Source: Propionispira raffinosivorans DSM 20765 (GTDB lineage: Bacteria > Bacillota > Negativicutes > Selenomonadales > Selenomonadaceae). From it: DNA of 64,000 nucleotides. The stretch spans positions 1 through 64,000 of the forward strand of contig NZ_KB905859.1 of the NCBI RefSeq assembly GCF_000381065.1, given 5' to 3'. Each line of letters begins with the position of its first letter. Within the stretch, counting starts at the first letter, position 1. Below the pieces are notes generated by a model. It worked only from the letters and a program-made list of their open reading frames with translations, had not been told where the DNA came from and searched no databases. Below are positions 1 through 53,920 of this stretch, piece after piece. The translations under genes were made by a program, and so were the position numbers.

Positions 1-218
1 TCTTTACGGAGTTTGATCATTTCAGCTTCATCGGGAGAACGGTTATCTTTTTCTTTGAAGGAACCTGATGTTTGATTTTGTTTCACCCATTTATCAAAGG
101 TAGAAGGTGTCAATTCGTACTCGCGAATGATGTCCTGTCGGGGTTTATTATTTAAATATAACTGGACAATTTGGTTTTTGAATTCTTCTGTATAAGTTCT
201 GCGTTCACGTTTGCTCAT
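1..218 (-). CDS. IS3-family transposase OrfA, N-terminal part (cut by window edge)
   Basis: The minus strand opens with ATG at 218, preceded by an AGGAG ribosome site at 225-229. It reads MSKRERRTYTEEFKNQIVQL and continues in frame to base 1. This is the helix-turn-helix start of an IS3-type OrfA (TYTEEFK, YELTPSTFDKWVKQ), the DNA-binding half of an OrfA-OrfB transposase that is normally completed by frameshifting. The rest, including the DDE catalytic OrfB, would lie to the left, so completeness cannot be judged. The element abuts the 3' end of the PTS IIC gene and may have separated this operon from further genes such as its regulator. Confidence 0.85.
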   Translation of the reverse strand, partial: MSKRERRTYTEEFKNQIVQLYLNNKPRQDIIREYELTPSTFDKWVKQNQTSGSFKEKDNRSPDEAEMIKLRK

Positions 219-290
219 TGTAAATCTCCTCATCTTATATTGAGTTTAAGTGTACTTGACCTTATTTTATCTGTCCAGTTTAGTGTAACC
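219..290 (-). mobile_element. Right-hand end of the IS3-family element
   Basis: Between the orfA start and the PTS gene, the minus strand contains CACTAAACTGGACAGATAAA (about 264-283), typical of the terminal inverted repeat region of IS3-family elements upstream of orfA. The exact end and any target duplication cannot be fixed because the other end is outside the window. The remaining bases to 375 show nothing else. Confidence 0.5.
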
Positions 291-375: not shown

Positions 376-1674
376 TTAGAACATATATTGTGCTAAACCA
401 AGGAGGTTTCCAATCCAACCTACCACTGTACAGACAACCATTTGGTCCCATTCAGCTGTCGTTTGCGCAAAAGCAACCATTGGACCAAGCATTGGGAAGA
501 AAAGAGATCTTCCCAATGTTGCAGTAAAACCGAAGAACATTGCACCGACTATAGCAGCTTTTTTACCACCGAATTTATTGGCAAAAATAGCTACAACACC
601 GCCGCCAAAGAAATTTTCATAGGTTACCATTAATATTGGAACAGTCATATCAAATCTCATTAAAATGGCCATACTAATAACAGAACAAATCTGAGCAATA
701 ACAAAACCAATCAGCAAAGAGTTGGCACCGTATTGGAAAAAAACGGGGCAGTCAAAAGCTGGTATAGCACCGGGAACTAGTTTTGTGGAAATACCTTGGA
801 AAGCCGGGGTGATTTCAGCAATAAACATACGAATTCCGTAAAGAAGAGCCATAAGACCAGCGGAGAAACCAAACCCAGAAAATATAGAAAACATTATCCA
901 ATTCTTTCCACCACTCAATGTCATAACAAAATCTTTACCTACGATTAGTGACAAGCCCACATACATAACTGACATAGTGAGAGCCACTGTGATAACAACT
1001 TCTTTTAGGAAAGATAAACGTCCGCTCAATTCGATATCTTCAAAGCTGTTATTGGGGTCCCCTATTTTGCTTCCGATCCAACTACCGATTAAGGCACAGG
1101 AACTGACACCATGTCCGAAGGCTATGGGAGCCCCTCCCGTTAGTACTTTGGTATAGGGTTGAAGCATATAGGGGAACACGACTTGGTATGTCCCAACAAT
1201 AACGCCGCCGATTAAGATAGCCGTAGTACTTGCAATACCCAGGTAGTTCATCAGCACTGCACAAACACAGATGCATGTCCAATGTGACCAATGACCGGTC
1301 AGGTAGATAATTTTCATCCTTGTAAATCGCGCAATTAAGATATTTACGACATACGCTAAACCGAGCGTTAATGCCGCCGCGCTCATAACATTATCATATG
1401 AGGCAATGATAGGAACCCTGGTTGCACCCTCCAATACGTTCGAAGCACCTACAATTTGCAAAGACATTTTTGTGAAAATGTCAACTTGAGCACAAATTGC
1501 ATTAAGCCCGAGGGTGAAAATGGTCATCCCTACATAAATCTTAATAACACCTGTCATAACTCTTTCAATGGGTTTCTTTTGGAGAACTAAACCAATAAGA
1601 CCAACTAATGCCATGACCACTGCAGCCTGAGTTAAAACCTCGTTAGCTAAAAATTCCATGATTGCACTAACCAT
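376..1674 (-). CDS. PTS IIC component, ascorbate (Ula/SgaT) type
   Basis: A 432-residue polytopic inner-membrane permease. It resembles UlaA/SgaT: an opening KKPIERVMTGVIKI followed by YVGMTIFTLG, the LTGH motif at residues 125-128, a conserved QPYTKVLTG loop and FGHGVSS. Members of this family carry the sugar across the membrane while the IIB partner phosphorylates it, and known substrates are L-ascorbate and related acids or lactones. A GAGGAGG ribosome site lies about 12 bases before the ATG. It is the last gene of the operon (ADH, RLP, IIA, IIB, IIC) but is separated from IIB by 366 bases holding a decayed transposase and an inverted repeat, so it may be expressed partly on its own. The true substrate is unknown; the RuBisCO-like neighbour suggests a sugar acid rather than ascorbate. 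Confidence 0.85.
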   Translation of the reverse strand: MVSAIMEFLANEVLTQAAVVMALVGLIGLVLQKKPIERVMTGVIKIYVGMTIFTLGLNAICAQVDIFTKMSLQIVGASNVLEGATRVPIIASYDNVMSAAALTLGLAYVVNILIARFTRMKIIYLTGHWSHWTCICVCAVLMNYLGIASTTAILIGGVIVGTYQVVFPYMLQPYTKVLTGGAPIAFGHGVSSCALIGSWIGSKIGDPNNSFEDIELSGRLSFLKEVVITVALTMSVMYVGLSLIVGKDFVMTLSGGKNWIMFSIFSGFGFSAGLMALLYGIRMFIAEITPAFQGISTKLVPGAIPAFDCPVFFQYGANSLLIGFVIAQICSVISMAILMRFDMTVPILMVTYENFFGGGVVAIFANKFGGKKAAIVGAMFFGFTATLGRSLFFPMLGPMVAFAQTTAEWDQMVVCTVVGWIGNLLGLAQYMF

Positions 1675-1769
1675 AGTTTTCTTCGACCTCCTCTTTTTAT
1701 GGGTATCGTAGATTTGTAGTGTTTCTTCTTTAACACTGTACCTGCTTTAATCATTAGAATATTCTGATA

Positions 1770-1850
1770 TTTATATAAAGTTTTATGGTTATTTTTGAGA
1801 GCCACTATGTAATCCGCCTTCCTTTGTGTATTCAGCGCAGCTACCATAAC
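1770..1850 (-). pseudogene. Fossil of an ISAs1-family transposase
   Basis: The minus strand encodes AALNTQRKADYIVALKNNHK followed by TLY. This matches the conserved DAxxTQ...GDYVLALKxNQxxLY core of ISAs1-family DDE transposases, with several residues missing after TQ. Only about 27 codons are recognisable, inside the 366-base gap between the PTS IIB and IIC genes. It is a dead remnant of an insertion inside the operon. It overlaps a spurious open frame running from 1907 to 1647. Confidence 0.6.
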
Positions 1851-1860
1851 TCTCAGTACT

Positions 1861-1970
1861 TCTAGTGTACTAACACATTGATATTTAGTTTTGTATTTTT
1901 GGCTCACTTTATATGCTGCCAGTATATTAAAATTTAATTTATTTAAAAGTCAATGTGTCAGTACACTAGA
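1861..1970. repeat. 21-bp inverted repeat pair with GTGT-N4-ACAC cores
   Basis: Bases 1861-1881 (TCTAGTGTACTAACACATTG plus A) and 1950-1970 are reverse complements with a single mismatch, separated by 68 bases. Each arm also contains its own small dyad of the form GTGT-N4-ACAC, the kind of half-site spacing seen in GntR-type operators. The pair could be two operator sites in opposite orientation, the ends of a vanished small mobile element (the transposase fossil ends next to the left arm), or a long-range hairpin in the IIB-IIC transcript. Confidence 0.55.
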
Positions 1971-2040
1971 GATTTTCCGGGTTTTCAAAACATTCTCTTC
2001 ATGCTTTTTGCCGTGATATCACCCTGTCAAGACAAGATTT

Positions 2041-2334
2041 TTAATCAATAACACCAATATCTCTAAGTTTTGATTCAAGTTCCCCTTTTCCGTAAAAATC
2101 TTTTATTGCTATAACCGGAATTTTTCCTTCAAACCTGTCGTTCATTTCTTTTTCAAAAGCGCTAGAAGTCACCACTAAAGTAAGACCGTTGGGAACACTC
2201 CCCGAATCAACGCATTCGATATTGGAAGATATTTTTTCCTCTTCAAGGATACTTTCCAGAAGAATCTTCAGGAGCAGGGAACTTCCCATTCCGCATCCAC
2301 AAATACAAGCACCGTTTACTTTTTTCCAAGCCAT
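2041..2334 (-). CDS. PTS IIB component, ascorbate (UlaB/SgaB) type
   Basis: A 97-residue soluble phosphocarrier. The N-terminal beta strand is followed by the P-loop CGCGMGSS, whose first Cys (residue 12) is the expected phosphorylated residue, as in UlaB (CGNGxGSS). It would take phosphate from the IIA protein encoded upstream and pass it to the sugar held by the IIC protein. An AGGAGG ribosome site precedes the ATG. It lies between two unusually long gaps (354 bases from IIA and 366 to IIC), uncommon for a PTS operon. Family assignment is firm; the substrate is unknown. Confidence 0.88.
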   Translation of the reverse strand: MAWKKVNGACICGCGMGSSLLLKILLESILEEEKISSNIECVDSGSVPNGLTLVVTSSAFEKEMNDRFEGKIPVIAIKDFYGKGELESKLRDIGVID

Positions 2335-2688
2335 GATTTTTTCCTCCTTATTTAATGTTATTTCTTAAATGCTCAACTTTCATTACGTGCTGGATTTCAA
2401 AAATTGAATATGCTTAAGCATCTCATAAAATCAGAAATCGTCAAGAATATGGATTTTCCCTCTTCCTTGTTTATAAAAGTGCTATTCCGTCTAATTTTCC
2501 AACACCGCAATTAAGTTGAGCTTATATGTTTTTTGCGTTGTTCAATGAAGTTGCTGACCTAGATTGGACAATTGCTTTAAAACAATTATTGAATATCTTT
2601 AACGATGTCAATAAAAATGTTTACAAGACGGTTTCGTCTTTTTATCGAAAAAAACTATACAGACGATTGTCTGCTTTTCCTAGTTATA
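2335..2688. other. 354-base gap between PTS IIA and IIB genes
   Basis: No gene is supported here. Two small hairpins are visible: AAGACG-GTTT-CGTCTT near 2624-2640, followed by Ts on the plus strand, and CAGAC-GATT-GTCTG near 2659-2672. A plus-strand open frame across this stretch and into the IIA gene has no recognisable product. The gap may be the scar of a lost insertion, like the transposase fossil in the next gap. Confidence 0.4.
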
Positions 2689-3177
2689 TCAAGATGGGGC
2701 TATTTCTTGCTGTGAAAGTAAAGTTTCGTCAGAGTTAAATATTTTCATGATATCATTTGCAGTCTGGGCACACTTGATCACTTCCAGAATTTTTTCTTCC
2801 TTTAAAATATTACAAATATCAGCAAGAGCTTCAACATGTCTTTCTTTAGCTGGTGCACTTAAACCCATTACCACATAAACGGGATCATAATTCTCATGAC
2901 CAAACTTAACAGGGGTTTTCAGGGTGATCATACACATGGCTACTTTCTTAGCACCGTCTTCTGGTCGAGCATGGGCCAAGGCAAAACCTGGCATCAATAC
3001 TATATATGGACCATACTTTTTAACGTATTTTATCATCCCGTCAATGTAGGAGCTTTCGACATCACCGTTCTCAAATAGTATATTTCCCACTTTCCTGACC
3101 GCTTCTTCCCAGTCCTGGCACTCAATTTGTGTACGAATAGTCTTTTCATTTAGATACTTCGTCAAGTTCCCTAACAA
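2689..3177 (-). CDS. PTS IIA component (mannitol/fructose/ascorbate superfamily)
   Basis: A 162-residue cytoplasmic EIIA of the PTS_EIIA_2 type. The motif PGFALAHARPE places the phosphorylated histidine at residue 69, matching UlaC/SgaA-type proteins (PGIAIPHARP and similar). It accepts phosphate from HPr and donates it to the IIB protein. It is third in the operon, 105 bases after the RuBisCO-like gene, with a GC-rich hairpin between them. Together with the Ula-like IIB and IIC it makes a complete split transporter. Confidence 0.85.
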   Translation of the reverse strand: MLGNLTKYLNEKTIRTQIECQDWEEAVRKVGNILFENGDVESSYIDGMIKYVKKYGPYIVLMPGFALAHARPEDGAKKVAMCMITLKTPVKFGHENYDPVYVVMGLSAPAKERHVEALADICNILKEEKILEVIKCAQTANDIMKIFNSDETLLSQQEIAPS

Positions 3178-3227
3178 AACAAATCCACCTCTTTTCTATG
3201 TCTATTAGAATATATTTTGAAGGCTAG

Positions 3228-3263
3228 TACCCCCGGAGACCCAATTCGCGGCACTCCGGGGTA
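3228..3263 (-). other. GC-rich intercistronic hairpin
   Basis: TACCCCCGGAG (3228-3238) pairs with CTCCGGGGTA (3254-3263) except for one extra C. It is markedly more GC-rich than its surroundings and lies between the RuBisCO-like and PTS IIA genes. No T-run follows on either strand, so an RNA stability or processing element is more likely than a terminator. Confidence 0.5.
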
Positions 3264-3282
3264 GTAGCCAATCCAAACTTAG

Positions 3283-4620
3283 TTAAATAGCATAGAGGTT
3301 TTTCAGATTTTCTTCTCCATAAATGCCCCATTTATTAACAGCAGCCTCTAATTCTTTATGATCTTTAGCGGCTTCTCTCAGGCTTACACCTTCCATACAA
3401 GCATCAATAGCCTGACGTAGCGCTTTAGCACCATCTACAGGTCCAGTTGGGAAACCATGCACGGAAGCACCAGCTCCTAACAATACATCATAACCCGTAT
3501 CTTGCATAATAGTTGGAATCAATCCTGGTATTACTCCACCACCAATAAATGGTAATGAAGCTTTTAGATCATAGAACTTGCCTTGACAAATTTGAATACT
3601 ACGTATATATTTACTCTGAATATTATCAAATTTACCATAAGGACACTCGATAAGAATAATATCAGCTCCGCACATACGCAATAGCTTGAATAATACATTT
3701 GAACTTACTCCCTGATATGGGGAAGTTTTCAGAGCTCCGCCGTAGCAGGTATGAGCCAGGATGGGAACATTAACATCCGGATCTTCTGCCAATGATCTCA
3801 GTGCTGATAAACCAATGCCAAAAACGTCTACCATAATCGCATTAGCACCAGCTTTAATAGCTCGCATGGCATTGTCTTTTAATTTATGAACTTCATCAGT
3901 GATATTTACGGTATACATAGTAGTTTCGCCTTTAATCTTATCAGCTTTGGCTGCAGCCGCCATGTTCAGCTTCACACGATCTTCAAGTTTGTTGAAAGCT
4001 CTGTCTCCCGAAATCAGTTCGTCATCCTTAATAATATCCACACCGCCTATTGCTGCGTCATAAAAGAGTTTTGCCCCTACCTCTGGTGTATATCCTGTGC
4101 AAGGTTTGATCATATTATTTAACAGTGGTCTGTCTTTAACACCTAAGATCTTCCTGATACCCGCTATACCAAATTTAGGTCCTTTGAACTTAGCAACAAA
4201 CTTAGCTGGAAAATCGATATCCAATAGCCGTAAATATGGCATAGATGTGATATTGCCAGTAATTGTGGCAAATAAAAGAGGCATATTGTCTTCGATATTT
4301 ATTTGAGGAAAAGCGATTCTGATTACATAGAAGCGCATATCACGATCAGCTAAGTCCTTTTTCATATAGGTAAAATTTTCATAATCAGGTACTTCAAAAA
4401 CAGAGAGAGTTTTAGCAGCATATTTTGCTCTAACCTCGTCTGTCTCTGCTTCTACATCAGTCCAAGACCCCGTGGTTTGCTCTATGCCAATGCTGGCTGC
4501 TTTAATAATCGGGTCCTCGTCCTTTTCAGCGCCAATCAGATATGTGGCAACACAGTAATCATCTAAATTAATTCCTTCAGTCATTGGGTTTAATAGTGGG
4601 CTATACAACCTGTTCATCAT
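3283..4620 (-). CDS. RuBisCO-like protein (form IV-type large chain)
   Basis: A 445-residue protein with the RuBisCO large-chain layout: an N-terminal alpha/beta domain (EQTTGSW near 47-53, TGN at 121-123), then a TIM barrel. The metal-site motif GGVDIIKDDE gives K198 (carbamylatable Lys), D200 and E201. K172 in MIKP matches catalytic K175 of spinach RuBisCO, H290 matches H294, and K330 (YGK) may match loop-6 K334. C174 replaces K177, the H327 equivalent is absent, and GGG (360-362) replaces the SGG phosphate-site motif. So it should form the Mg-enolate but not fix CO2. Such proteins act as enolases or isomerases in methionine salvage, or as decarboxylases/transcarboxylases on 3-oxo-isoapionate 4-phosphate. 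Its PTS and dehydrogenase neighbours fit the sugar-acid role better (inference). AGGAGG precedes ATG-ATG. Confidence 0.88.
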   Translation of the reverse strand: MMNRLYSPLLNPMTEGINLDDYCVATYLIGAEKDEDPIIKAASIGIEQTTGSWTDVEAETDEVRAKYAAKTLSVFEVPDYENFTYMKKDLADRDMRFYVIRIAFPQINIEDNMPLLFATITGNITSMPYLRLLDIDFPAKFVAKFKGPKFGIAGIRKILGVKDRPLLNNMIKPCTGYTPEVGAKLFYDAAIGGVDIIKDDELISGDRAFNKLEDRVKLNMAAAAKADKIKGETTMYTVNITDEVHKLKDNAMRAIKAGANAIMVDVFGIGLSALRSLAEDPDVNVPILAHTCYGGALKTSPYQGVSSNVLFKLLRMCGADIILIECPYGKFDNIQSKYIRSIQICQGKFYDLKASLPFIGGGVIPGLIPTIMQDTGYDVLLGAGASVHGFPTGPVDGAKALRQAIDACMEGVSLREAAKDHKELEAAVNKWGIYGEENLKNLYAI

Positions 4621-4698
4621 AATTTTTTCCTCCTAATTTTTATTTATTTATTTATTAAAACCATAAGCAAATAAAAGATGGCCATTTCCCATATTCAC

Positions 4699-5751
4699 TT
4701 ACGGATTTATAACAACCTTCAATACTTTTCCCGATTCGGCCAGAGCCATGGCTTGATCGAAATCATCCATTTTCATTTTTGTTACAAGTTTCGATAAATC
4801 AATTTTATTTTGAGTAATGAGCTCAATAGCCTTAAAAAAGTGATGCGGACGAGAAATATAAGTGCCATGTAAGGTAAGCTGGCTGTAATGCAAAACATTA
4901 CTGTCCAGTTGAATCATACGATTTTGGTCAGGGAGCCCGCCAAAGAAAATCACATGTCCTCCTTTGCGAACATAGCTGAATGCCTGTTCCTGTACAGCTT
5001 TTACTGAACATGCTACGATCACAATATCCGCGCCTCTTCCATGTGTAACCTTTTTGATAACATCTACCAGGTTTTCCTTCTTTACGTTGACTACAATGTC
5101 CGGCGAAGCTGCCGCTGCGACTAATGCCAGCCTTTCTTCAAACACATCAGCAATAATTGTAGTTCCAATACCATTTAGTTTCAGGTTAGCGATATGGAGG
5201 GCACCAATTGGTCCTGCTCCGATTATTACGGCTGTATCATTGGAATCGAATGTAATGTTATCATGTGAATTCATTACCGTTGTCAGAGGCTCAGCTAAAG
5301 CCGCTACATCAATATCAACATTATTGGTAAGCTTTTTAACCGGACCTTTTTCAATAAACATATGAGGTACTGCAACATACTCTGCGAAACCGCCGGGAAA
5401 ATCTACAGGTCCATTACCTAGACACTTAATATCAGAGCAAAGATTTTCCTGTCCTTTTTTACAGAAATAACATTCACCACACGATGCAGTTGACCCCACA
5501 GCAACCTTATCGCCGACCTTATAGTCTGCGTGTAAAGTACTGCCAACTTCCGCAACGACTCCGGTAATTTCGTGCCCCATAATGACGGGGTATTGCTTTA
5601 TTTTGCCACTACCATTGCGGATAGTCCTGATATCAGAGCCGCAGAGACCACATGCACTCACTTTTAATAAAAATCCATCAGATGGACATTTTGGTACAGC
5701 AATCTCGCCAACTCTTACTTTATTTGGTCCTTCTAATAAAACTGCCTTCAT
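4699..5751 (-). CDS. Zinc-dependent medium-chain dehydrogenase (GatD/sorbitol type)
   Basis: A 350-residue MDR-family alcohol dehydrogenase. Catalytic zinc ligands are C37 (CGLCGSD) and H60-E61 (MGHE). The structural zinc lobe has four cysteines at 91, 94, 97 and 105 (CGECYFCKKGQENLC). The Rossmann motif GAGPIG follows. It resembles galactitol-1-phosphate 5-dehydrogenase and other polyol-phosphate dehydrogenases, oxidising a secondary alcohol to a ketone with NAD(P). It is the first gene after the sigma54-type promoter, 78 bases before the RuBisCO-like gene, so it probably oxidises the PTS-phosphorylated substrate into the keto compound used by that protein (inference). Confidence 0.87.
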   Translation of the reverse strand: MKAVLLEGPNKVRVGEIAVPKCPSDGFLLKVSACGLCGSDIRTIRNGSGKIKQYPVIMGHEITGVVAEVGSTLHADYKVGDKVAVGSTASCGECYFCKKGQENLCSDIKCLGNGPVDFPGGFAEYVAVPHMFIEKGPVKKLTNNVDIDVAALAEPLTTVMNSHDNITFDSNDTAVIIGAGPIGALHIANLKLNGIGTTIIADVFEERLALVAAAASPDIVVNVKKENLVDVIKKVTHGRGADIVIVACSVKAVQEQAFSYVRKGGHVIFFGGLPDQNRMIQLDSNVLHYSQLTLHGTYISRPHHFFKAIELITQNKIDLSKLVTKMKMDDFDQAMALAESGKVLKVVINP

Positions 5752-5806
5752 ATTGAACCCTCTCCTAATCGAAATAATTTTTTCTTAATGTTCTGCATAT
5801 TTATAT

Positions 5807-5823
5807 ATGCAATTTCAATGCCA
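5807..5823 (-). promoter_or_regulatory. Candidate sigma54 (-24/-12) promoter of the RuBisCO-like/PTS operon
   Basis: The minus strand reads TTGGCATTGAAATTGCAT, with GG of the -24 element and GC of the -12 element exactly 10 bases apart (consensus TGGCAC-N5-TTGCA). It lies about 56 bases upstream of the dehydrogenase ATG, giving a predicted start near 5797. Sigma54 promoters need an AAA+ activator, and gut-type PTS operons in Firmicutes are often of this class. No activator gene lies next to the operon in this window. Confidence 0.72.
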
Positions 5824-6280: not shown

Positions 6281-6877
6281 ATGAAAAATTTAAAACTTAA
6301 AGAAATGACACTCTGCGCACTTTTTATAGCGCTCGTGGCTATAGGTGCATTTATCAAGATTCCCGTTGGGACGGATATATTTACCCTGCAGTTTCTCTTC
6401 ACCCTGCTTGCAGGTTTATTACTCGGCGGTAAACTTGGCGCAACAGCCGTTGGCGTCTATGTGCTTTTAGGGCTCATTGGTGTACCTGTTTTCGCCGAGG
6501 GTGGTGGTCCTGGCTATATCCTGCAACCGACCTTTGGCTACCTGGTCGGTTTTATACTGCAGGCATGGTTTACTGGTGTCATGGCACGTCGCGATCAGAA
6601 TATCACACTATATAATATGCTTGCCGTAAATCTCGGTGGCATGATCATTGTCTACATATTCGGACTCATTTACTTTTATATCAGCTCAAACTATATAATC
6701 GATGCGCCAATTGCCTTTTGGCCGCTTATACTGTATAGTGGTATTTTGCAAATTCCAGGAGATTTTTGTCTGTGCTATCTCGCCGCATTTTTGAGTGTAC
6801 GTTGTTATAAAGCAAGCCTCTGGCTGGATATACAAAAAAATAACGAACCTATAAAAATCGAAGTAAAGGAAGTATAA
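6281..6877 (+). CDS. bioY: BioY, substrate-binding subunit of the biotin ECF transporter
   Basis: A 198-residue membrane protein with the BioY pattern: IALVAIGAFIKIPVG in the first helix, FTLQFLFTLLAGLLLGGKLG, then VPVFAEGGGPGYILQPTFGY, the conserved biotin-pocket loop. About six membrane segments follow. It binds biotin and works alone or with a shared EcfA/A'/T energising module, which is not in this window. GGAGG precedes the ATG by eight bases. The bioD remnant four bases downstream shows this was once a two-gene biotin operon, and the cell now probably relies on uptake, unless bio genes lie elsewhere. Confidence 0.93.
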   Translation: MKNLKLKEMTLCALFIALVAIGAFIKIPVGTDIFTLQFLFTLLAGLLLGGKLGATAVGVYVLLGLIGVPVFAEGGGPGYILQPTFGYLVGFILQAWFTGVMARRDQNITLYNMLAVNLGGMIIVYIFGLIYFYISSNYIIDAPIAFWPLILYSGILQIPGDFCLCYLAAFLSVRCYKASLWLDIQKNNEPIKIEVKEV

Positions 6878-6880
6878 AAC

Positions 6881-7213
6881 ATGGGGAAATGTATCACTGT
6901 CACAGAACCCGATATTGGAAAAACATATGAACAGGTCTTCTCGTAAAAAAGTTCAAGCTACGCGTACTCACACCATCGTTGATGTCGGTCTGGGCACAAT
7001 CAATACTGCTGTACTCACCATAGAACATCTTCACACACGTAAAATTTCTGTGCAGGGAATCATTCTGAACAATTTTCATTTGGGCGACCTATGGAAGAAG
7101 ACAACCTCAAAATGATTGAAGCAATCGCCAGCATAAAAATTGTAGCAACCGTCAAAAAAGGTGATACAGAACTTGCTATGGATACAGATAACTTAGCAGC
7201 ACTTTATGCATAA
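6881..7213 (+). pseudogene. bioD: Broken dethiobiotin synthetase (bioD) remnant
   Basis: Three pieces of BioD are recognisable. The ATG at 6881 gives MGKCITVTEPDIGKTYEQVF then a stop, matching the N-terminal VTGTDTxxGKT P-loop region with the TG lost. A second frame (about 6970-7085) gives DVGLGTINTAVLTIEHL, matching the GLGTINHTLLTVEAL segment. A third frame from 7092 gives KIVATVKKGDTELAMDT to the stop at 7213, the BioD C-terminus. A functional protein has about 220-240 residues; here the middle is deleted and there are frameshifts. It follows bioY by three bases, so it is a decayed operon partner. Confidence 0.85.
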
Positions 7214-7217
7214 AAAA

Positions 7218-7253
7218 TCACCATTGTAGATTTTACCGAATATACAATGGTGA
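7218..7253. terminator. Bidirectional intrinsic terminator
   Basis: TCACCATTGTA (7218-7228) and TACAATGGTGA (7243-7253) form a perfect 11-bp stem with CTTTTTATTT after it on the plus strand and a run of A before it (T-run for the minus strand). It ends the bioY/bioD transcript and the multicopper oxidase transcript coming from the right. Confidence 0.9.
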
Positions 7254-7261
7254 CTTTTTAT

Positions 7262-8710
7262 TTATTTAGCTTCAATCATTGTCATCATTCCACCATCTTC
7301 ATGATCTAAAATATGGCAATGCAGCATCCAAGTCCCTGGCTCTTCCATTTTAAATGCAACATCTACATATTGTCCTGCTGGAACATTGATCGTATCTTTC
7401 CAAGTTTCCCGTTCCGGAGGTGCTCCATTCAAAGAGACAACTTGAAAATAGGTTCCATGCAAATGTATTGGATGATCCATTGGATGCATACCCTGGGTAT
7501 CTTTATTCCAAAAACGAATTTTTACGACTTTTCCAACAGTTACTTGCAACGGGTCTGTCTCTGGGAAAACCTTTCCATTAATCGTCCACTGCATCCCAGA
7601 CATCGACATATTCATTGGCATGTCTTTAGATTGCATGCCGTTCGTAACCATTCCAGATTCGCTGTTCATCATATGATTCATGCCCGCCATATCGTGCATT
7701 GCACCTGTCGTTCCTGTATGATCTGACATCTTGGTCATCATCGTTGAGCCCAGTTCCAAAACATAATCTGGTGTTTTTTCTGCTATACCTGGAAAGCTTT
7801 TGCTTGCTGGAGATATAAAGGGGGAAACCACCTGATGGACTGCTTTCCCTTTATATTCTATCGGAATATTGATTCCAAGCGCTGGTCTATCACTAGTCAA
7901 ATGATATACTTGCCCTTCTTTTCCATCTGCTGCAACTTCAATATCAAGTCTTTCTCCAGGTGCCAAGGTAACTTTATCCGTCATATATGGTTCTACTAAC
8001 GGATGTCCATCCGTATGTGTTACCCGAAAACTATGCCCATCTAATTGCAAGGTATGATAAGCGGCTGTTGAAGCATTAATAAATCTTAATTTATGCAATT
8101 CACCTGGTTTAAATACTAATGGTTCAATTGCTTCGCCCGTTTTGCCGTTTACCGTTTCAATATTTCCATAGCGCTCCATAGTTCCACGGGCTGTTCCTGT
8201 CAAACGATTACCATTTTCGTCTAAATACCAATCATCAAGTACCAAAATATGATCTCCACTATATTTATCATCCGCATTTGTTTTTACAATAAACGGAGCA
8301 TACAAGCCCATATCAACCTGTGTTAATACAGGCCGATAATGTGAATGATACCAATACGTTCCAGCTTCTTTTGCGGTAAATTCATAACGAAAAGAAGCTC
8401 CTGGTTCTATAACGCGGTTAGGACCATCCTGATCGTTCGGTACAACTAAACCATGCCAATGAATATTTGTCGTTACTGGCAAATGATTTACACCTTCAAC
8501 AATAACATTTTCGCCTTCATGAACCACAATCGGGGTACCCGGAATCGTCCCATTATAGGTCCATACAGTTGTCGACAGACCCGGTTTCAATTCCCAGACA
8601 CTTTCTTTGATATCTAATTTAATATCCGCTGCCTGTGCCGTTGCACTTAATGTAAATACTACTAGAGCAGCCGTGGCTAGACAGCTCCACCATTTTTTAC
8701 CATACACCAT
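7262..8710 (-). CDS. Multicopper oxidase, secreted
   Basis: A 482-residue protein with a signal peptide (hydrophobic 8-26, cleavage likely after AQA) and three cupredoxin domains. Copper ligands are visible: HWHG at 84-87, YWYHSH at 119-124, HPMDHPIHLHG in the C-terminal third, and the HCHILDHEDGGMM type 1/trinuclear motif at the end. A Met/His-rich insert before the last domain (MHDMAGMNHMM, MPMNMSMSGM) resembles the copper-sensing segment of CueO/CopA-type cuprous oxidases. It would oxidise Cu(I) or other substrates in the cell envelope using O2, which is unusual if the host is the strict anaerobe its relatives suggest. The gene stands alone, with no copper pump beside it. Confidence 0.92.
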   Translation of the reverse strand: MVYGKKWWSCLATAALVVFTLSATAQAADIKLDIKESVWELKPGLSTTVWTYNGTIPGTPIVVHEGENVIVEGVNHLPVTTNIHWHGLVVPNDQDGPNRVIEPGASFRYEFTAKEAGTYWYHSHYRPVLTQVDMGLYAPFIVKTNADDKYSGDHILVLDDWYLDENGNRLTGTARGTMERYGNIETVNGKTGEAIEPLVFKPGELHKLRFINASTAAYHTLQLDGHSFRVTHTDGHPLVEPYMTDKVTLAPGERLDIEVAADGKEGQVYHLTSDRPALGINIPIEYKGKAVHQVVSPFISPASKSFPGIAEKTPDYVLELGSTMMTKMSDHTGTTGAMHDMAGMNHMMNSESGMVTNGMQSKDMPMNMSMSGMQWTINGKVFPETDPLQVTVGKVVKIRFWNKDTQGMHPMDHPIHLHGTYFQVVSLNGAPPERETWKDTINVPAGQYVDVAFKMEEPGTWMLHCHILDHEDGGMMTMIEAK

Positions 8711-49874: not shown

Positions 49875-51020
49875 TTACCATTCCGCATGCGTTCCATCAT
49901 AATTTTTCCATTTTGGATTCGTCCAAACCAAGCCTTCTGCTGAAACTTTCTTAACCAAATCTTCATTGATTTCTAAACCCAAACCAGGTTTATTTGGTAA
50001 ATCAACAAATCCATTTTTATACTGAAAAATTTCTTTATTTTCTATGAAATCCAATAAATCAAAACCTTTATTATAATGAATCCCCAAACTTTGTTCTTGG
50101 ATAAATACATTTGGTGAACATGCATCAATTTGTAAGGTTGCCGCCAACGCAATTGGTCCATACGGAGCATGCGGTGCTGCTGCCATATCGAAAGCTTCTG
50201 CCATAGCAATAATTTTTCTCGTTTCTAAAATACCACCTGCCAAAGCAACATCGGGCTGAATAATATCAATAATCCCTTCTTTAAATAAAGTTTTATATTC
50301 CCATCTCGTACACAATCTCTCACCGGTAGCCAAAGGTGTGGCTGTATATTTAGCAATCTCTTTAAATGCTTCTTCATTTTCCGGCAAAACCACTTCTTCC
50401 ATAAACATCAGTTTATAAGGATCTAAGGCTCTTGCCAAAACTTTTGCCATAGGTTTATGTACTCGCCCATGAAAATCGACGGCAATACCAAAATCAATAC
50501 CCATAGTATCTCGAATCGAAGCAACTCGATCGACAACCGCTTGTACTTTTTCATAAGAATCAATATAATGCAGTTCTTCTGTTGCATTCATTTTCACTGC
50601 CTTAAAGCCTCTGTTTTTACGATCTATCGCTTCTTTGACTACATCATCCGGTCTGTCGCCACCAATCCATGAATAGACCATAATCTTATCGCGCGCTTTG
50701 CCGCCCAAAAGTTCATAAATTGGCAAATTACAAAACTTTCCTTTAATATCCCATAATGCAGTTTCAATGCCAGATACAATCGTAGAATTGATCGGACCAC
50801 CACGAAAAAATGATTTATAAAGCTCCTGCCATAATGATTCAATATCGAAGGGATTACGCCCAATAAGATACTCGCCCATTTCAGTTGCACCAGCCACCAC
50901 AGTTTCTGTTTTGGTTCCAGAAATCATTTCTCCCCAGCCTTCGATCCCTTCGTCTGTGGTAATTTTAATAAAAATCCATCTTGGCTTAACCCTATATATT
51001 TTAATTGCTGAAATTTTCAA
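49875..51020 (-). CDS. Enolase-superfamily sugar-acid dehydratase (DgoD-like)
   Basis: A 381-residue member of the mandelate racemase subgroup close to D-galactonate dehydratase. Active-site elements are VDFHGRV (metal Asp and catalytic His), FMEEVVLPEN (metal Glu), ATGERLCTRW (metal Glu) and AAPHAPYGPIALAA (second catalytic His). It would remove water from an aldonate to give a 2-keto-3-deoxy acid. The start is a TTG at 51020, with AAGGAG nine bases before it and homology beginning there; the frame extends to 51098 without a ribosome site. In this operon the substrate may be phosphorylated already (inference). Confidence 0.88.
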   Translation of the reverse strand: MKISAIKIYRVKPRWIFIKITTDEGIEGWGEMISGTKTETVVAGATEMGEYLIGRNPFDIESLWQELYKSFFRGGPINSTIVSGIETALWDIKGKFCNLPIYELLGGKARDKIMVYSWIGGDRPDDVVKEAIDRKNRGFKAVKMNATEELHYIDSYEKVQAVVDRVASIRDTMGIDFGIAVDFHGRVHKPMAKVLARALDPYKLMFMEEVVLPENEEAFKEIAKYTATPLATGERLCTRWEYKTLFKEGIIDIIQPDVALAGGILETRKIIAMAEAFDMAAAPHAPYGPIALAATLQIDACSPNVFIQEQSLGIHYNKGFDLLDFIENKEIFQYKNGFVDLPNKPGLGLEINEDLVKKVSAEGLVWTNPKWKNYDGTHAEW

Positions 51021-51072
51021 AAATTTTACACTCCTTTTCTTACCATAGCGTATTTCGATAAAATTTATATTT

Positions 51073-52434
51073 TTATAGATCTTCAAGTTTTTCTTCACTC
51101 ATTTTATTACCTTTAAATTTCTCAATATATATCCATGTACCAATAATTCCAGCACCTAATAATGGCAGGCTCAACATTAAATTACTTGTAAATGCTGTAA
51201 ATACCAAATAACTGACAGTTAAACTCGTTGCAGCAAAAGATGAAATCCCGCCACTTGCTGAAATATCAATCCCCACAGAAGTTGCTAATCCAGTTAGCAC
51301 TGGTGAAGTAGCCGTCCCCGCCAATAAAATCAGCACCATACAAACTAGTCCAATTAAAATACTTCTAAATAAATTCCCATTACACAATGCCACAATCAAC
51401 GCTATCCTAAAAGGTATAACCGCTAAATCAGCAAATGGCAAAACTCGATTACCTGGAATAATCGTTGCCATCAAAATCGTTAATGGAATAATGATTAACC
51501 CTGCTGTAATAACCGTTGAATCACCTACAACCACTGCTGCGTCAAGACCAATTAAGAATTTTCTTCCTTTAAATTTTTCTTTGGTTAATTTTTTAGCAGC
51601 TTCAGAAATTGGAATTAACCCTTCCATAAATAATGCTGTCATTTTAGGAATCAAAATCATTACAGCTGCCATATTAACTCCCAACGAAAAGATTGCCGTG
51701 ATCTTATATTCGGCTAATACCCCAATACCACATCCTAAAATCAACCCCATAAAAATTGGTTCTCCAAAAAACCCTAAATATTTTTGCGCATCTTTTGCCG
51801 AAAAATCAATTTTATTAATTACAGGAATTTGATCAATAATTTTATTTAGTGGCGCTGCTATAATAACAGATGATAAGGCGGACATAGTCGGCAATGAAAC
51901 TCCGGGAATACCAAAATACTTTTCAACTGCTGGGGCTGTCCAGTCGGCTAATTTAAAAGAAATAATCGCCATAACAACCGATACCCCTAACCCGATAAAT
52001 ACATTATTTGTAGCAAAATACGCCATAATTCCAACAATAGCCATATGATGATAATTCCAGATATCAACATCTAACGTGTCCGTCAGCTTCAACACAAGCA
52101 TCAAAACATTCGTCAATAAAATACCAAAAATCAGCAATGGAATAATTGGGGATGACCAGGTAACCGCCGCAATTGCGCCCCAACCAACGTCTAAAATATC
52201 CAATTTTATACCAAAATTAGTTACCATCGCCTTCGCAGCAGGACCTAAATTATCCGAAAGTAAATTAACAACTAATTTAATGCCCGCAAAAACAATGGCA
52301 ATAATTAAACCTGAACGAAATGCCTTGAGTACCTTTACTCTAAACAAAAGCCCCACAACCGTAATGATTATTGGTAAAAGTACAATCGGACCGGCTAATA
52401 ATAATGTATTAAATGCACTATAAACTAAATCCAT
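51073..52434 (-). CDS. PTS IIC component, galactitol (GatC) type
   Basis: A 453-residue inner-membrane permease with about ten membrane segments. The sequence follows GatC: FRSGLIIAIVFAGIKLVVNL, YHHMAIVGIMAYFATNNVFI, KYFGIPGVSLPTMSALS and the long cytoplasmic loop KKLTKEKFKGRKFLIGLDAA. It moves the substrate across the membrane for phosphorylation by the IIB protein. It starts 11 bases after the IIB gene. A galactitol substrate itself is unlikely, given the dehydratase and aldolase partners; a sugar acid is more probable. Confidence 0.9.
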   Translation of the reverse strand: MDLVYSAFNTLLLAGPIVLLPIIITVVGLLFRVKVLKAFRSGLIIAIVFAGIKLVVNLLSDNLGPAAKAMVTNFGIKLDILDVGWGAIAAVTWSSPIIPLLIFGILLTNVLMLVLKLTDTLDVDIWNYHHMAIVGIMAYFATNNVFIGLGVSVVMAIISFKLADWTAPAVEKYFGIPGVSLPTMSALSSVIIAAPLNKIIDQIPVINKIDFSAKDAQKYLGFFGEPIFMGLILGCGIGVLAEYKITAIFSLGVNMAAVMILIPKMTALFMEGLIPISEAAKKLTKEKFKGRKFLIGLDAAVVVGDSTVITAGLIIIPLTILMATIIPGNRVLPFADLAVIPFRIALIVALCNGNLFRSILIGLVCMVLILLAGTATSPVLTGLATSVGIDISASGGISSFAATSLTVSYLVFTAFTSNLMLSLPLLGAGIIGTWIYIEKFKGNKMSEEKLEDL

Positions 52435-52445
52435 TTTTCTACCTC

Positions 52446-52724
52446 CTATTGCAGTATCTGAATTATTTTTTCAATGGTTTCGTCTTCACCAACACCAGTT
52501 AATAATGAAATTGCGCCTATTATAGGAACAGTGACACCATCTCCAGTAAATTTTCCAGTCGTTATAACCAAATCAAAATCATTTGCTTTCCCACTAAGTT
52601 CCAAAAGTTTACACTGACTTACTAAAATAGAAAGGCCTTTCTCTTCACAAGCCTCGCGAACCTTTTGTGCCACTACTGTTGATGTAGCAATTCCATTTCC
52701 ACACGCAACTAAAACTCTTTTCAT
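52446..52724 (-). CDS. PTS IIB component, galactitol (GatB) type
   Basis: A 92-residue phosphocarrier. The P-loop VACGNGIATST at the N-terminus carries the phosphorylated Cys at residue 8, as in GatB. It passes phosphate from the IIA protein to the IIC-bound sugar. It overlaps nothing and starts one base after the IIA stop, in a tight operon (aldolase, IIA, IIB, IIC, dehydratase). Confidence 0.92.
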   Translation of the reverse strand: MKRVLVACGNGIATSTVVAQKVREACEEKGLSILVSQCKLLELSGKANDFDLVITTGKFTGDGVTVPIIGAISLLTGVGEDETIEKIIQILQ

Positions 52725-52725
52725 A

Positions 52726-53205
52726 TTACTCGTCTCCTCTAATTAAATATTTTAAACAGATATCATAAATAGTTTTTACATCTTTACAATTGATCATTTG
52801 CTTCAATTGTTCTTGTTCCTTGACCAAAGCTAAAACCTTCTGCAGCATTGCAATTTGTCCATGTGGCTGACTTAAGGCAAGCATAAAAATTATGTTTACA
52901 TCAATTTCTCGTTCCGGATCGTCCATCGCATAAAAGGTAAGCGGTTTCGATAAAATCCCCATAGCAAATGCATCGTATCGAACATGGATACAATCCGTAT
53001 GTGGCACGGCAATATTAATACCACCCGTAAACAATCCTGTCGGATATATTTTTTCTCGCTCTAATATACCTTTTTTATAACCTTCCGTTACATATTTTTT
53101 GGCATATAATTGCTCTGCCAAAAAGCTCAAAGCAATTTCCTTAGAATCAATTTCGTCTGATAATTTAAAAATTAATTTTTCATTAAAACATAACCCATCA
53201 TCCAT
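52726..53205 (-). CDS. PTS IIA component, galactitol/fructose type
   Basis: A 159-residue EIIA of the PTS_EIIA_2 family. The active histidine is residue 69 in NIAVPHTDC. The N-terminal helix and GLFTGG strand match GatA. It takes phosphate from HPr and passes it to the IIB protein. It begins three bases after the aldolase stop. Confidence 0.9.
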   Translation of the reverse strand: MDDGLCFNEKLIFKLSDEIDSKEIALSFLAEQLYAKKYVTEGYKKGILEREKIYPTGLFTGGINIAVPHTDCIHVRYDAFAMGILSKPLTFYAMDDPEREIDVNIIFMLALSQPHGQIAMLQKVLALVKEQEQLKQMINCKDVKTIYDICLKYLIRGDE

Positions 53206-53208
53206 TTT

Positions 53209-53838
53209 TCAATCTCCTTTGACACGACTTTCAAAATATGCTAATGATTTTTCCAGACCAACTTTATCTTGTCTTCTAATATCTTGAGGCTGAAAAATCC
53301 CCGATGCAATCCCGACATATTTTGCTCCAGCCTTTCTGTATTGTGCAACATTTTCTGCATTAACGCCTCCCACTGCCATGAGTGGTAGTTCACCAAACGG
53401 CGCTGCAATATCTTGAAAATATTTTGTCCCTAACCCCCTTGCCGGAAAAACTTTCACAATATCCGCCCCATCTTGAAATGATTGATAGATCTCGGTAGGT
53501 GAATATGCTCCTGGAATACTTATTACCGCATGTTGCTTACATAAATCCAACATTGCCGGGGAAAACATAATCGGTGATAAAACAAAATCAGCACCGATCT
53601 CTATTACCTGTTCAAGCTCTTGTTTTTTTAGAACAGTTCCCGCCCCAATAGCAATAGAATCTCCATATACTTCAACAATTTTACGAATGATCTGCATTGA
53701 ATCTTCTCGATTCAACGTGATTTCTACGGCACGAATCTGACTATCCAGCAAAACTTCCACTACCGTTTTCACTTGCTCATAATCATAACCTCTAAGAATA
53801 GCCGTTACAGGAGAAAATTCTGCTAGGTTTTTTTTCAT
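53209..53838 (-). CDS. KDPG/KDPGal-type aldolase
   Basis: A 209-residue class I aldolase of the Eda/DgoA family. The substrate and Schiff-base residues are in EITLNRED (Glu, Arg), AIGAGTVL and ADIVKVFPARG (Lys). It splits 2-keto-3-deoxy-6-phospho(galacto)nate into pyruvate and glyceraldehyde 3-phosphate. As the first gene after a sigma54-type promoter, it completes a route in which PTS phosphorylation replaces the usual KDG/KDGal kinase. The exact stereochemistry handled cannot be read from sequence. Confidence 0.9.
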   Translation of the reverse strand: MKKNLAEFSPVTAILRGYDYEQVKTVVEVLLDSQIRAVEITLNREDSMQIIRKIVEVYGDSIAIGAGTVLKKQELEQVIEIGADFVLSPIMFSPAMLDLCKQHAVISIPGAYSPTEIYQSFQDGADIVKVFPARGLGTKYFQDIAAPFGELPLMAVGGVNAENVAQYRKAGAKYVGIASGIFQPQDIRRQDKVGLEKSLAYFESRVKGD

Positions 53839-53857
53839 CTGATGACCTCCAAAAAAA

Positions 53858-53890
53858 ATAAGTACGAATCGTCTTTTGATTCATACTTAT
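53858..53890 (-). terminator. Terminator-like hairpin at the start of the sugar-acid operon leader
   Basis: On the minus strand ATAAGTATGAATC (53890-53878) pairs with GATTCGTACTTAT (53870-53858) with one mismatch, then TTTTTTTTGG. It should end the regulator transcript, whose stop is at 53921. The sigma54 start predicted near 53887 falls inside its first arm, so the operon mRNA would carry a slightly shortened hairpin. Confidence 0.65.
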
Positions 53891-53895
53891 CTATT

Positions 53896-53913
53896 ATGCA
53901 AGCCACATGCCAA
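53896..53913 (-). promoter_or_regulatory. Candidate sigma54 (-24/-12) promoter of the sugar-acid PTS operon
   Basis: The minus strand reads TTGGCATGTGGCTTGCAT, with GG and GC ten bases apart as the sigma54 consensus requires. It lies eight bases after the stop codon of a sigma54 activator gene and about 58 bases before the aldolase ATG. The activator is its obvious partner. Confidence 0.82.
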
Positions 53914-53920
53914 TAAATGG

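Follow-up and report, generated by a model that had tools for sequence, protein, structure and literature searches.

RuBisCO is believed to descend from RuBisCO-like proteins (RLPs), relatives that do not fix CO2 and for most of which no reaction is known. The DNA analysed here, positions 1 to 64,000 of contig NZ_KB905859.1 of Propionispira raffinosivorans DSM 20765 (assembly GCF_000381065.1; genome 4.13 Mb), is referred to as the window and begins at the first base of the contig. It encodes an RLP in one operon with a zinc-dependent dehydrogenase and a phosphotransferase system (PTS), which raises the question of whether a PTS can supply the phosphate of an RLP substrate, and of what the RLP then does with it. 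A sequence-only reading of the locus had proposed such a supply for a sugar acid, followed by oxidation to a keto acid phosphate and its decarboxylation or transcarboxylation. The comparison of sequences and gene neighbourhoods reported here gives good support to a PTS-fed RLP pathway, with the PTS filling the slot that a kinase holds in related RLP clusters, as that reading had supposed. Its terms "sugar-acid" and "decarboxylation" are not well supported, given the loss of two anion-binding residues and the relatives that stand with glycerol kinase and GlpA.

The operon and its promoter

The operon lies on the minus strand and encodes, in this order, a zinc-dependent medium-chain dehydrogenase/reductase (MDR; 350 amino acids, 4699..5751), the RLP (445 amino acids, 3283..4620), EIIA (2689..3177), EIIB (2041..2334) and EIIC (376..1674). 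All five genes are intact and all stand where the sequence-only reading had placed them, with Pfam scores far above the cut-offs: ADH_N 95.2 against 23.5 bits (and ADH_zinc_N 66.4 bits) for the dehydrogenase, RuBisCO_large 167.8 against 30.1 for the RLP, PTS_EIIA_2 111.9 against 27, PTS_IIB 39.5 against 23.6 and EIIC-GAT 285.9 against 24.2 bits. The PF03611 EIIC, which belongs to the EIIC-GAT/UlaA superfamily and aligns with UlaA (4rp8), is thus accompanied by its EIIA and EIIB, as in other PTS of the EIIC-GAT family, and the motifs ALAHARP in EIIA and CICGCGMGSS in EIIB hold the candidate phosphorylated His and Cys.

The span given earlier for the operon, 376-5823, is right for the genes, while its last part, 5752-5823, is non-coding and holds a perfect sigma-54 (-24/-12) promoter, TGGCATTGAAATTGCA (5823-5808, minus strand; TGGCAT-TGAAA-TTGCA, an exact match to the pattern), 57 bp ahead of the dehydrogenase start codon. 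Such a pattern is expected by chance 0.25 times per 64-kb window. The identical site is found in Propionispira arboris, and the same or similar sites precede the first gene of a second Propionispira cluster (loci L004 and L012 in our numbering) and of the clusters at L028, L033, L061 and L092; none was seen before the first gene at L017, L040 and L077. Most PTS-RLP clusters thus have such a site ahead of their first gene, and the majority of the clusters bearing the site encode a LevR-type activator.

In P. arboris the same operon, free of insertions, with 94-95% DNA identity and an RLP that is 98% identical, extends into a gene for a DUF89/ARMT1-like phosphatase and then into one for a LevR-type activator of 963 amino acids. 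The genome of the window has intact copies of these two genes on contig C42, where they follow the second end of an IS3-type element. The 5' part of the transposase open reading frame of this element lies at the contig end of the window (1..222, minus strand), and its 3' end opens C42. The homology to the P. arboris locus (L013) stops in the window at L013:7470 and begins in C42 at L013:7474, so the operon is cut by an insertion of this element at the contig end. The activator has Sigma54_activat, PRD and EIIA domains, and the -24/-12 promoter and a linked LevR-type activator, the two marks of a LevR/sigma-54 PTS operon, are thus both present. As judged from sequence, it is the sigma-54 promoter that links operon and activator, independently of gene order.

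Between the EIIB and EIIC genes lies the remnant of an ISAs1-family transposase open reading frame (1647..1907, minus strand; NF033564, E 6e-4 over 35 amino acids), where about 100 bp have no counterpart in P. arboris. Upstream of the operon a BioY-like gene and a multicopper oxidase gene are found (6281-8710); P. arboris has no long open reading frame at that place.

The active site of the RLP

The AlphaFold model of the RLP (pLDDT 91.5) has the RuBisCO fold (TM 0.80-0.86), and the structures found closest to it by Foldseek are a Chlorobium RLP and the methionine-salvage enolase MtnW, a result that points to the general RuBisCO fold only and to no sharper function. This fold, together with the metal/carbamate triad K198-D200-E201 (K201/D203/E204 in RuBisCO), places the protein in the RuBisCO superfamily as an RLP. 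The triad is kept as had been claimed, and so is the replacement of RuBisCO K177 by C174. The RLP also keeps K172 (RuBisCO K175), H290, the loop-6 lysine K330 and N123, and it has T291 at the position of R295 and no equivalent of H327. A RuBisCO carboxylase was rejected on C174, T291, the missing His327 and G360 in place of S379, and on the form III score (279.7 against 497.45 bits).

The RLP belongs to a clade named after the motif that holds C174, MIKPC, and the same pattern was found throughout this clade. In an alignment with relatives and PDB chains (RuBisCO numbering), its members keep the equivalents of E60 (79/85), loop-6 K334 (82/85), N123, K175, K201/D203/E204 and H294, have a cysteine at K177 and are without R295 and H327. 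The latter two residues are kept in the B. fungorum RLP 3nwr and in the RLPs that stand beside four-carbon-acid kinases, which are assigned by genomic context; they are missing also from MtnW and from the RLPs of Chlorobium and R. palustris. In RuBisCO, R295 and H327 bind the distal phosphate of ribulose bisphosphate, and the substrate of MtnW is neutral at that end. Their loss therefore favours, at the level of sequence, a substrate of the RLP that carries a single phosphate and is neutral at its other end.

The possibility that the protein is simply the methionine-salvage enolase comes from its best PDB sequence matches, which are MtnW enolases with about one third identity. Both the TIGR03332 score (293.7 against 513.6 bits) and the presence of N123 where the general base Lys98 would be speak against it. 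The RLP also lies outside the MtnW branch of the tree and has no mtn gene in its operon (mtnA is on contig C15); the sequence-only reading had named the opposite outcome as one that would refute it. We regard an MtnW function as scarcely credible.

A decarboxylase is a more serious rival. By analogy with the 3-oxo-isoapionate-4-phosphate decarboxylases, the PTS would import an aldonate such as a tetronate, the dehydrogenase would give a 3-keto-acid phosphate, and the RLP would decarboxylate it, for instance to dihydroxyacetone phosphate (DHAP) or a tetrulose phosphate. The loop-6 Lys, E60 and N123 serve carboxylation in RuBisCO, and that their equivalents are kept here, and lost in MtnW, would suit such a reaction; the kept lysine is the best argument for it. 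Against it stand the lost R295/H327 anion site and the score of the OiaX model (NF042437, 199.4 against 700 bits), by which OiaX itself was rejected. A DUF1537-kinase-linked RLP of the Oia type was likewise rejected: there is no kinase in the operon, T291 occupies the R295 position, and the protein falls on a separate starred branch, although the branches are long.

Identity of the PTS and the dehydrogenase

The Ula-type PTS of the sequence-only reading is indeed Ula-related, and its presence in the operon fits an acid substrate of the kind that the decarboxylase would need. It is not an ascorbate PTS by the curated cut-offs (EIIC 353.4 against 380 bits, EIIA 104.7 against 187 bits), even if ascorbate EIIA is the best curated match of EIIA. 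No UlaD/UlaG-type gene is found in the operon, and two EIIC positions differ from their aligned counterparts in UlaA (Q139 to W and Q195 to G), which we take to be pocket residues. From these comparisons ascorbate is not favoured as the PTS substrate. The description of the dehydrogenase as GatD-like was too specific: the protein scores 103.8 bits with the GatD model, which has a cut-off of 550, and is a generic zinc MDR whose closest solved relatives in the PDB are threonine dehydrogenases.

Neighbour genes of the relatives

A scan of 84,980 species genomes, with the MIKPC motif among the patterns used, gave 80 loci, and the genes around each RLP were mapped and named by means of reference proteins with Pfam/NCBIfam assignments; searches at the level of the order and of the family returned identical sets of genomes. 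Among the 85 members of the clade, a PTS is found near the RLP in 11 and a kinase in 46, none has both, and 28 have neither, many of these being of the PEP_hydrolase/UPF0261 type or on short contigs. If the two were independent, the absence of a kinase from 11/11 PTS members would have p ~2e-4, a figure that ignores relatedness. Across the clade the phosphorylation slot is thus occupied either by a kinase, which may be a glycerol kinase or belong to the FGGY or DUF1537 families, or by a PTS, and a kinase and a PTS do not occur together.

The closest relatives, 62-70% identical to the RLP of the window, occur in three settings. The first is that of GlpK/GlpA operons, arranged SorC-GlpK-GlpA-oxidoreductase-DUF1667-RLP in Acetobacterium, Clostridium drakei and others (GlpK 760 against 498 bits). 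In the second, at L026, L031 and L032, a DUF1537 kinase and PdxA adjoin RLPs of 62-65% identity, which supports the decarboxylase and keeps the acid reading alive. The third is the PTS setting of P. arboris, L028 and L033. The cluster at L028, from a Clostridia metagenome-assembled genome, has the order RLP-dehydrogenase-EIIA-EIIB-EIIC-LevR-PtsI, with identities of 62% for the RLP, 53% for EIIC and 45% for the dehydrogenase. At L061 the order is PtsI-EIIA-EIIB-EIIC-RLP-GlpA-GlpB-GlpC, and the PTS occupies the place of GlpK in a GlpABC operon. In Sporomusa and Desulfosporosinus, GlpA-RLP is found with GlpK, GlpB and GlpC nearby. The nearness of glycerol kinase and GlpA-type dehydrogenases makes polyol phosphates no less plausible than acids; across the relatives, partners of the GlpK/GlpA and polyol type outnumber those of the acid type, which counts against the decarboxylase.

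The GlpK-GlpA-type operons of the closest relatives could also be taken to mean that the RLP acts at the level of glycerol, with DHAP, G3P or some side product of glycerol breakdown as its substrate, and that the PTS compound of the window reaches the same C3 pool. This fits Sporomusa sp. KB1 (L036), whose genome has a single strong GlpK match, encoded in one operon with the RLP, an aquaglyceroporin, GlpA, GlpB and GlpC. However, glycerol is not turned into DHAP by a PTS and a zinc dehydrogenase, the kinases of some other clade members are of the XylB type, and there is no known reason for a RuBisCO-like step beyond DHAP, so that we consider this explanation unlikely. The XylB-type FGGY kinases are found in the Chloroflexi and archaeal members, often with a saccharopine-dehydrogenase-like protein.

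Among more divergent members, L017, from a genome of the same family, has the order PRD regulator-Gat PTS-RLP (33% identity)-RpiB-TIM-class II aldolase and no dehydrogenase. RpiB and TIM adjoin a second divergent member, L162, as well, and these neighbours suggest a tetrulose- or triose-phosphate product.

Two further arrangements were seen in the survey. An operon of the order RLP-PEP_hydrolase-UPF0261 (Tm-1)-PEP_hydrolase, which lacks a PTS and in most cases also a kinase, is present at L042, L048, L059, L063, L144-L157 (Syntrophomonas and others) and other loci. Caproiciproducens faecalis (L091) has two near-identical RLP genes about 4.5 kb apart.

A search without any pattern in 398 randomly sampled Bacillota genomes gave a match at E<=1e-100 in 23, and MIKPC was kept in 24/24 loci examined from this sample, which answers the worry that C174 reflects ascertainment bias. 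A Gat/Ula PTS EIIC lies within 7.5 kb at 7/24 of these loci, and some of these seven are in genomes already found by the first scan. Linkage of RLP and PTS genes, for which the sequence-only reading had suggested a neighbourhood survey, therefore recurs in other genomes.

In a tree of 94 rows (IQ-TREE quick mode, SH-aLRT), the RLPs of the window and P. arboris fall in a starred clade of 19 rows with 10 GlpK/GlpA, 4 PTS and 3 DUF1537 members; MtnW and the plasmid DUF1537-kinase RLPs are placed apart from it, on long branches. At least 5 changes on starred branches are required to account for the PTS label, which indicates that PTS linkage was gained or lost repeatedly.

That the RLP and the PTS are chance neighbours serving separate pathways would be in line with the 15 EIIC-GAT genes of this genome, among which a random gene has a probability of about 5% of lying within 7.5 kb of one, and with the GlpK-linked relatives that have no PTS. 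The gene order on one strand, the common promoter type and the recurrence of PTS-RLP clusters in several Bacillota lineages with reshuffled order argue against it, and we find mere proximity very improbable.

Other RLP and PTS genes in the genome

The genome contains a second cluster, EIIA-EIIB-EIIC(Gat)-dehydrogenase-PHP-SorC-RLP, whose RLP is 46% identical to that of the window. In P. arboris this cluster is followed by another LevR gene and shares a contig with the first, at a distance of about 20 kb. A third, distant RLP (L005, contig C12, 384 amino acids) is adjoined by a cupin and a CoA-binding protein, lies about 9 kb from another Gat PTS and appears to have His at the E201 position.

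The window itself holds a second, complete LevR/PTS operon (49875-56875, minus strand), with genes for a LevR-type activator, a 2-keto-3-deoxy-6-phosphogluconate (KDPG)-type aldolase, EIIA, EIIB, EIIC-GAT and a galactonate dehydratase (598 against 311 bits), and with a sigma-54 site at 53912-53897. Its gene content suggests that it is probably a PTS-fed acid-sugar pathway. On its annotation, this operon would be a case of acid sugars entering by a Gat-type PTS, and it lends weight to the decarboxylase, as does the LevR-controlled PTS operon for D-glucosaminate (dga) of Salmonella (PMC3844500). On balance the decarboxylase is a tentative alternative, to be taken seriously but less probable than the scheme given below.

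The proposed pathway

Most of the neighbour modules contain a phosphorylating protein, kinase or PTS, together with a dehydrogenase. Both GlpA and PdxA oxidise the carbon adjacent to CH2-O-phosphate, and a ketone next to CH2-O-phosphate is the geometry of all known RuBisCO-superfamily substrates. From this set of partners and this chemistry we infer the order PTS, zinc dehydrogenase, RLP enolisation. The PTS would import a small polyol (or an aldonate) and phosphorylate its terminal CH2OH, and the zinc dehydrogenase would oxidise the neighbouring carbon to give a ketone beside CH2-O-phosphate. The RLP, with Mg2+ on carbamylated Lys198, would then form an enediolate by taking the proton on the side of the ketone away from the phosphate. 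This enediolate would most likely be reprotonated so that the ketone is shifted along the chain, as by an isomerase, giving a ketose phosphate for central metabolism, and the downstream DUF89/ARMT1-like protein may act as a clean-up phosphatase. The loss of both distal-anion residues slightly favours a ketose monophosphate and such a ketone-shifting (enolase/isomerase) step.

We consider it likely that this is a sigma-54/LevR-controlled catabolic operon which follows the scheme "phosphorylate, oxidise, enolise" up to the enolisation; for the whole scheme, isomerisation included, the chances appear close to even. In a wider reading, which we put somewhat above an even chance, the MIKPC clade, with members in Bacillota, Chloroflexota, Actinomycetota and archaea, would constitute a new functional family of RLPs. 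Its enolate reaction, not described before, would act on monophosphates of ketoses or keto acids that stem from small polyols or aldonates. A PTS would supply the phosphate from phosphoenolpyruvate in Propionispira and a number of further Bacillota, making this the first PTS-fed RLP pathway.

Several points weigh against the scheme "phosphorylate, oxidise, enolise". We know of no member of the MIKPC clade with an assigned substrate or activity. The DUF1537 kinase and PdxA of L026, L031 and L032 would fit an acid, and the kept loop-6 Lys and E60/N123 equivalents would suit a decarboxylase. Two PTS members, L033 and L061, are without the zinc dehydrogenase and have a short-chain dehydrogenase/reductase (SDR) or GlpABC instead. 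The anion-site argument leans on the established RuBisCO numbering and on the context-based assignment of the kinase-linked RLPs, and with 15 EIIC-GAT genes in the genome a single chance neighbour is not rare.

Relation to known systems

The kinase of the known RLP sugar-acid pathways is of the DUF1537 family, which is also seen beside RLPs in the operons compared here. The Oia and other DUF1537-kinase-linked RLPs resemble the system of the window in that a compound is imported, oxidised and phosphorylated before the RLP acts on the resulting keto monophosphate, and in that an MDR or SDR oxidoreductase is often adjacent. In contrast to the window, they have an ABC or TRAP transporter, receive the phosphate from the kinase, keep R295/H327 and lie on a far branch of the tree. 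RLP sugar-acid pathways, with OiaC, OiaT and OiaX of D-apiose/apionate catabolism, are known from Carter et al. 2018, in so far as that work is reported in PMC6302742, and several related RLPs had no known function according to a paper from 2020 (PMC7325909).

MtnW shares with the RLP of the window the fold, the metal site, a K175-equivalent Lys, the absence of an R295-type Arg and the highest PDB sequence scores, but it uses Lys98, for which the window has Asn123, has no loop-6 Lys and is accompanied by mtn genes. The RLPs of Chlorobium tepidum (1ykw/1tel) and R. palustris (2qyg) give the best or near-best fold match, are also without R295/H327 and have about 30% identity. The Ula (L-ascorbate) and Gat (galactitol) PTS have the same EIIA/EIIB/EIIC family, and gat also has a zinc dehydrogenase in its operon, whereas the operon of the window has no UlaD/UlaG-type enzymes and differs from UlaA in the EIIC pocket. 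The dga operon of Salmonella is similar in its LevR-type activator, its -24/-12 promoter and its combination of a PTS with catabolic enzymes for an unusual substrate; it differs in having no RLP and in using a mannose-family PTS.

The sequence-only reading knew of no described PTS-fed RLP pathway, and in a literature search of incomplete coverage the combination was not found either. No paper in this search joins an RLP with galactitol or glycerol kinase, and its phosphotransferase-system matches were unrelated by title and abstract.

The partner set of "phosphorylate, then oxidise", together with the interchangeable kinase and PTS modules, narrows the class of substrates for tests in cultured Propionispira arboris, Acetobacterium and Sporomusa. 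A PTS-fed RLP route, if true, would also add a new design to catabolism.

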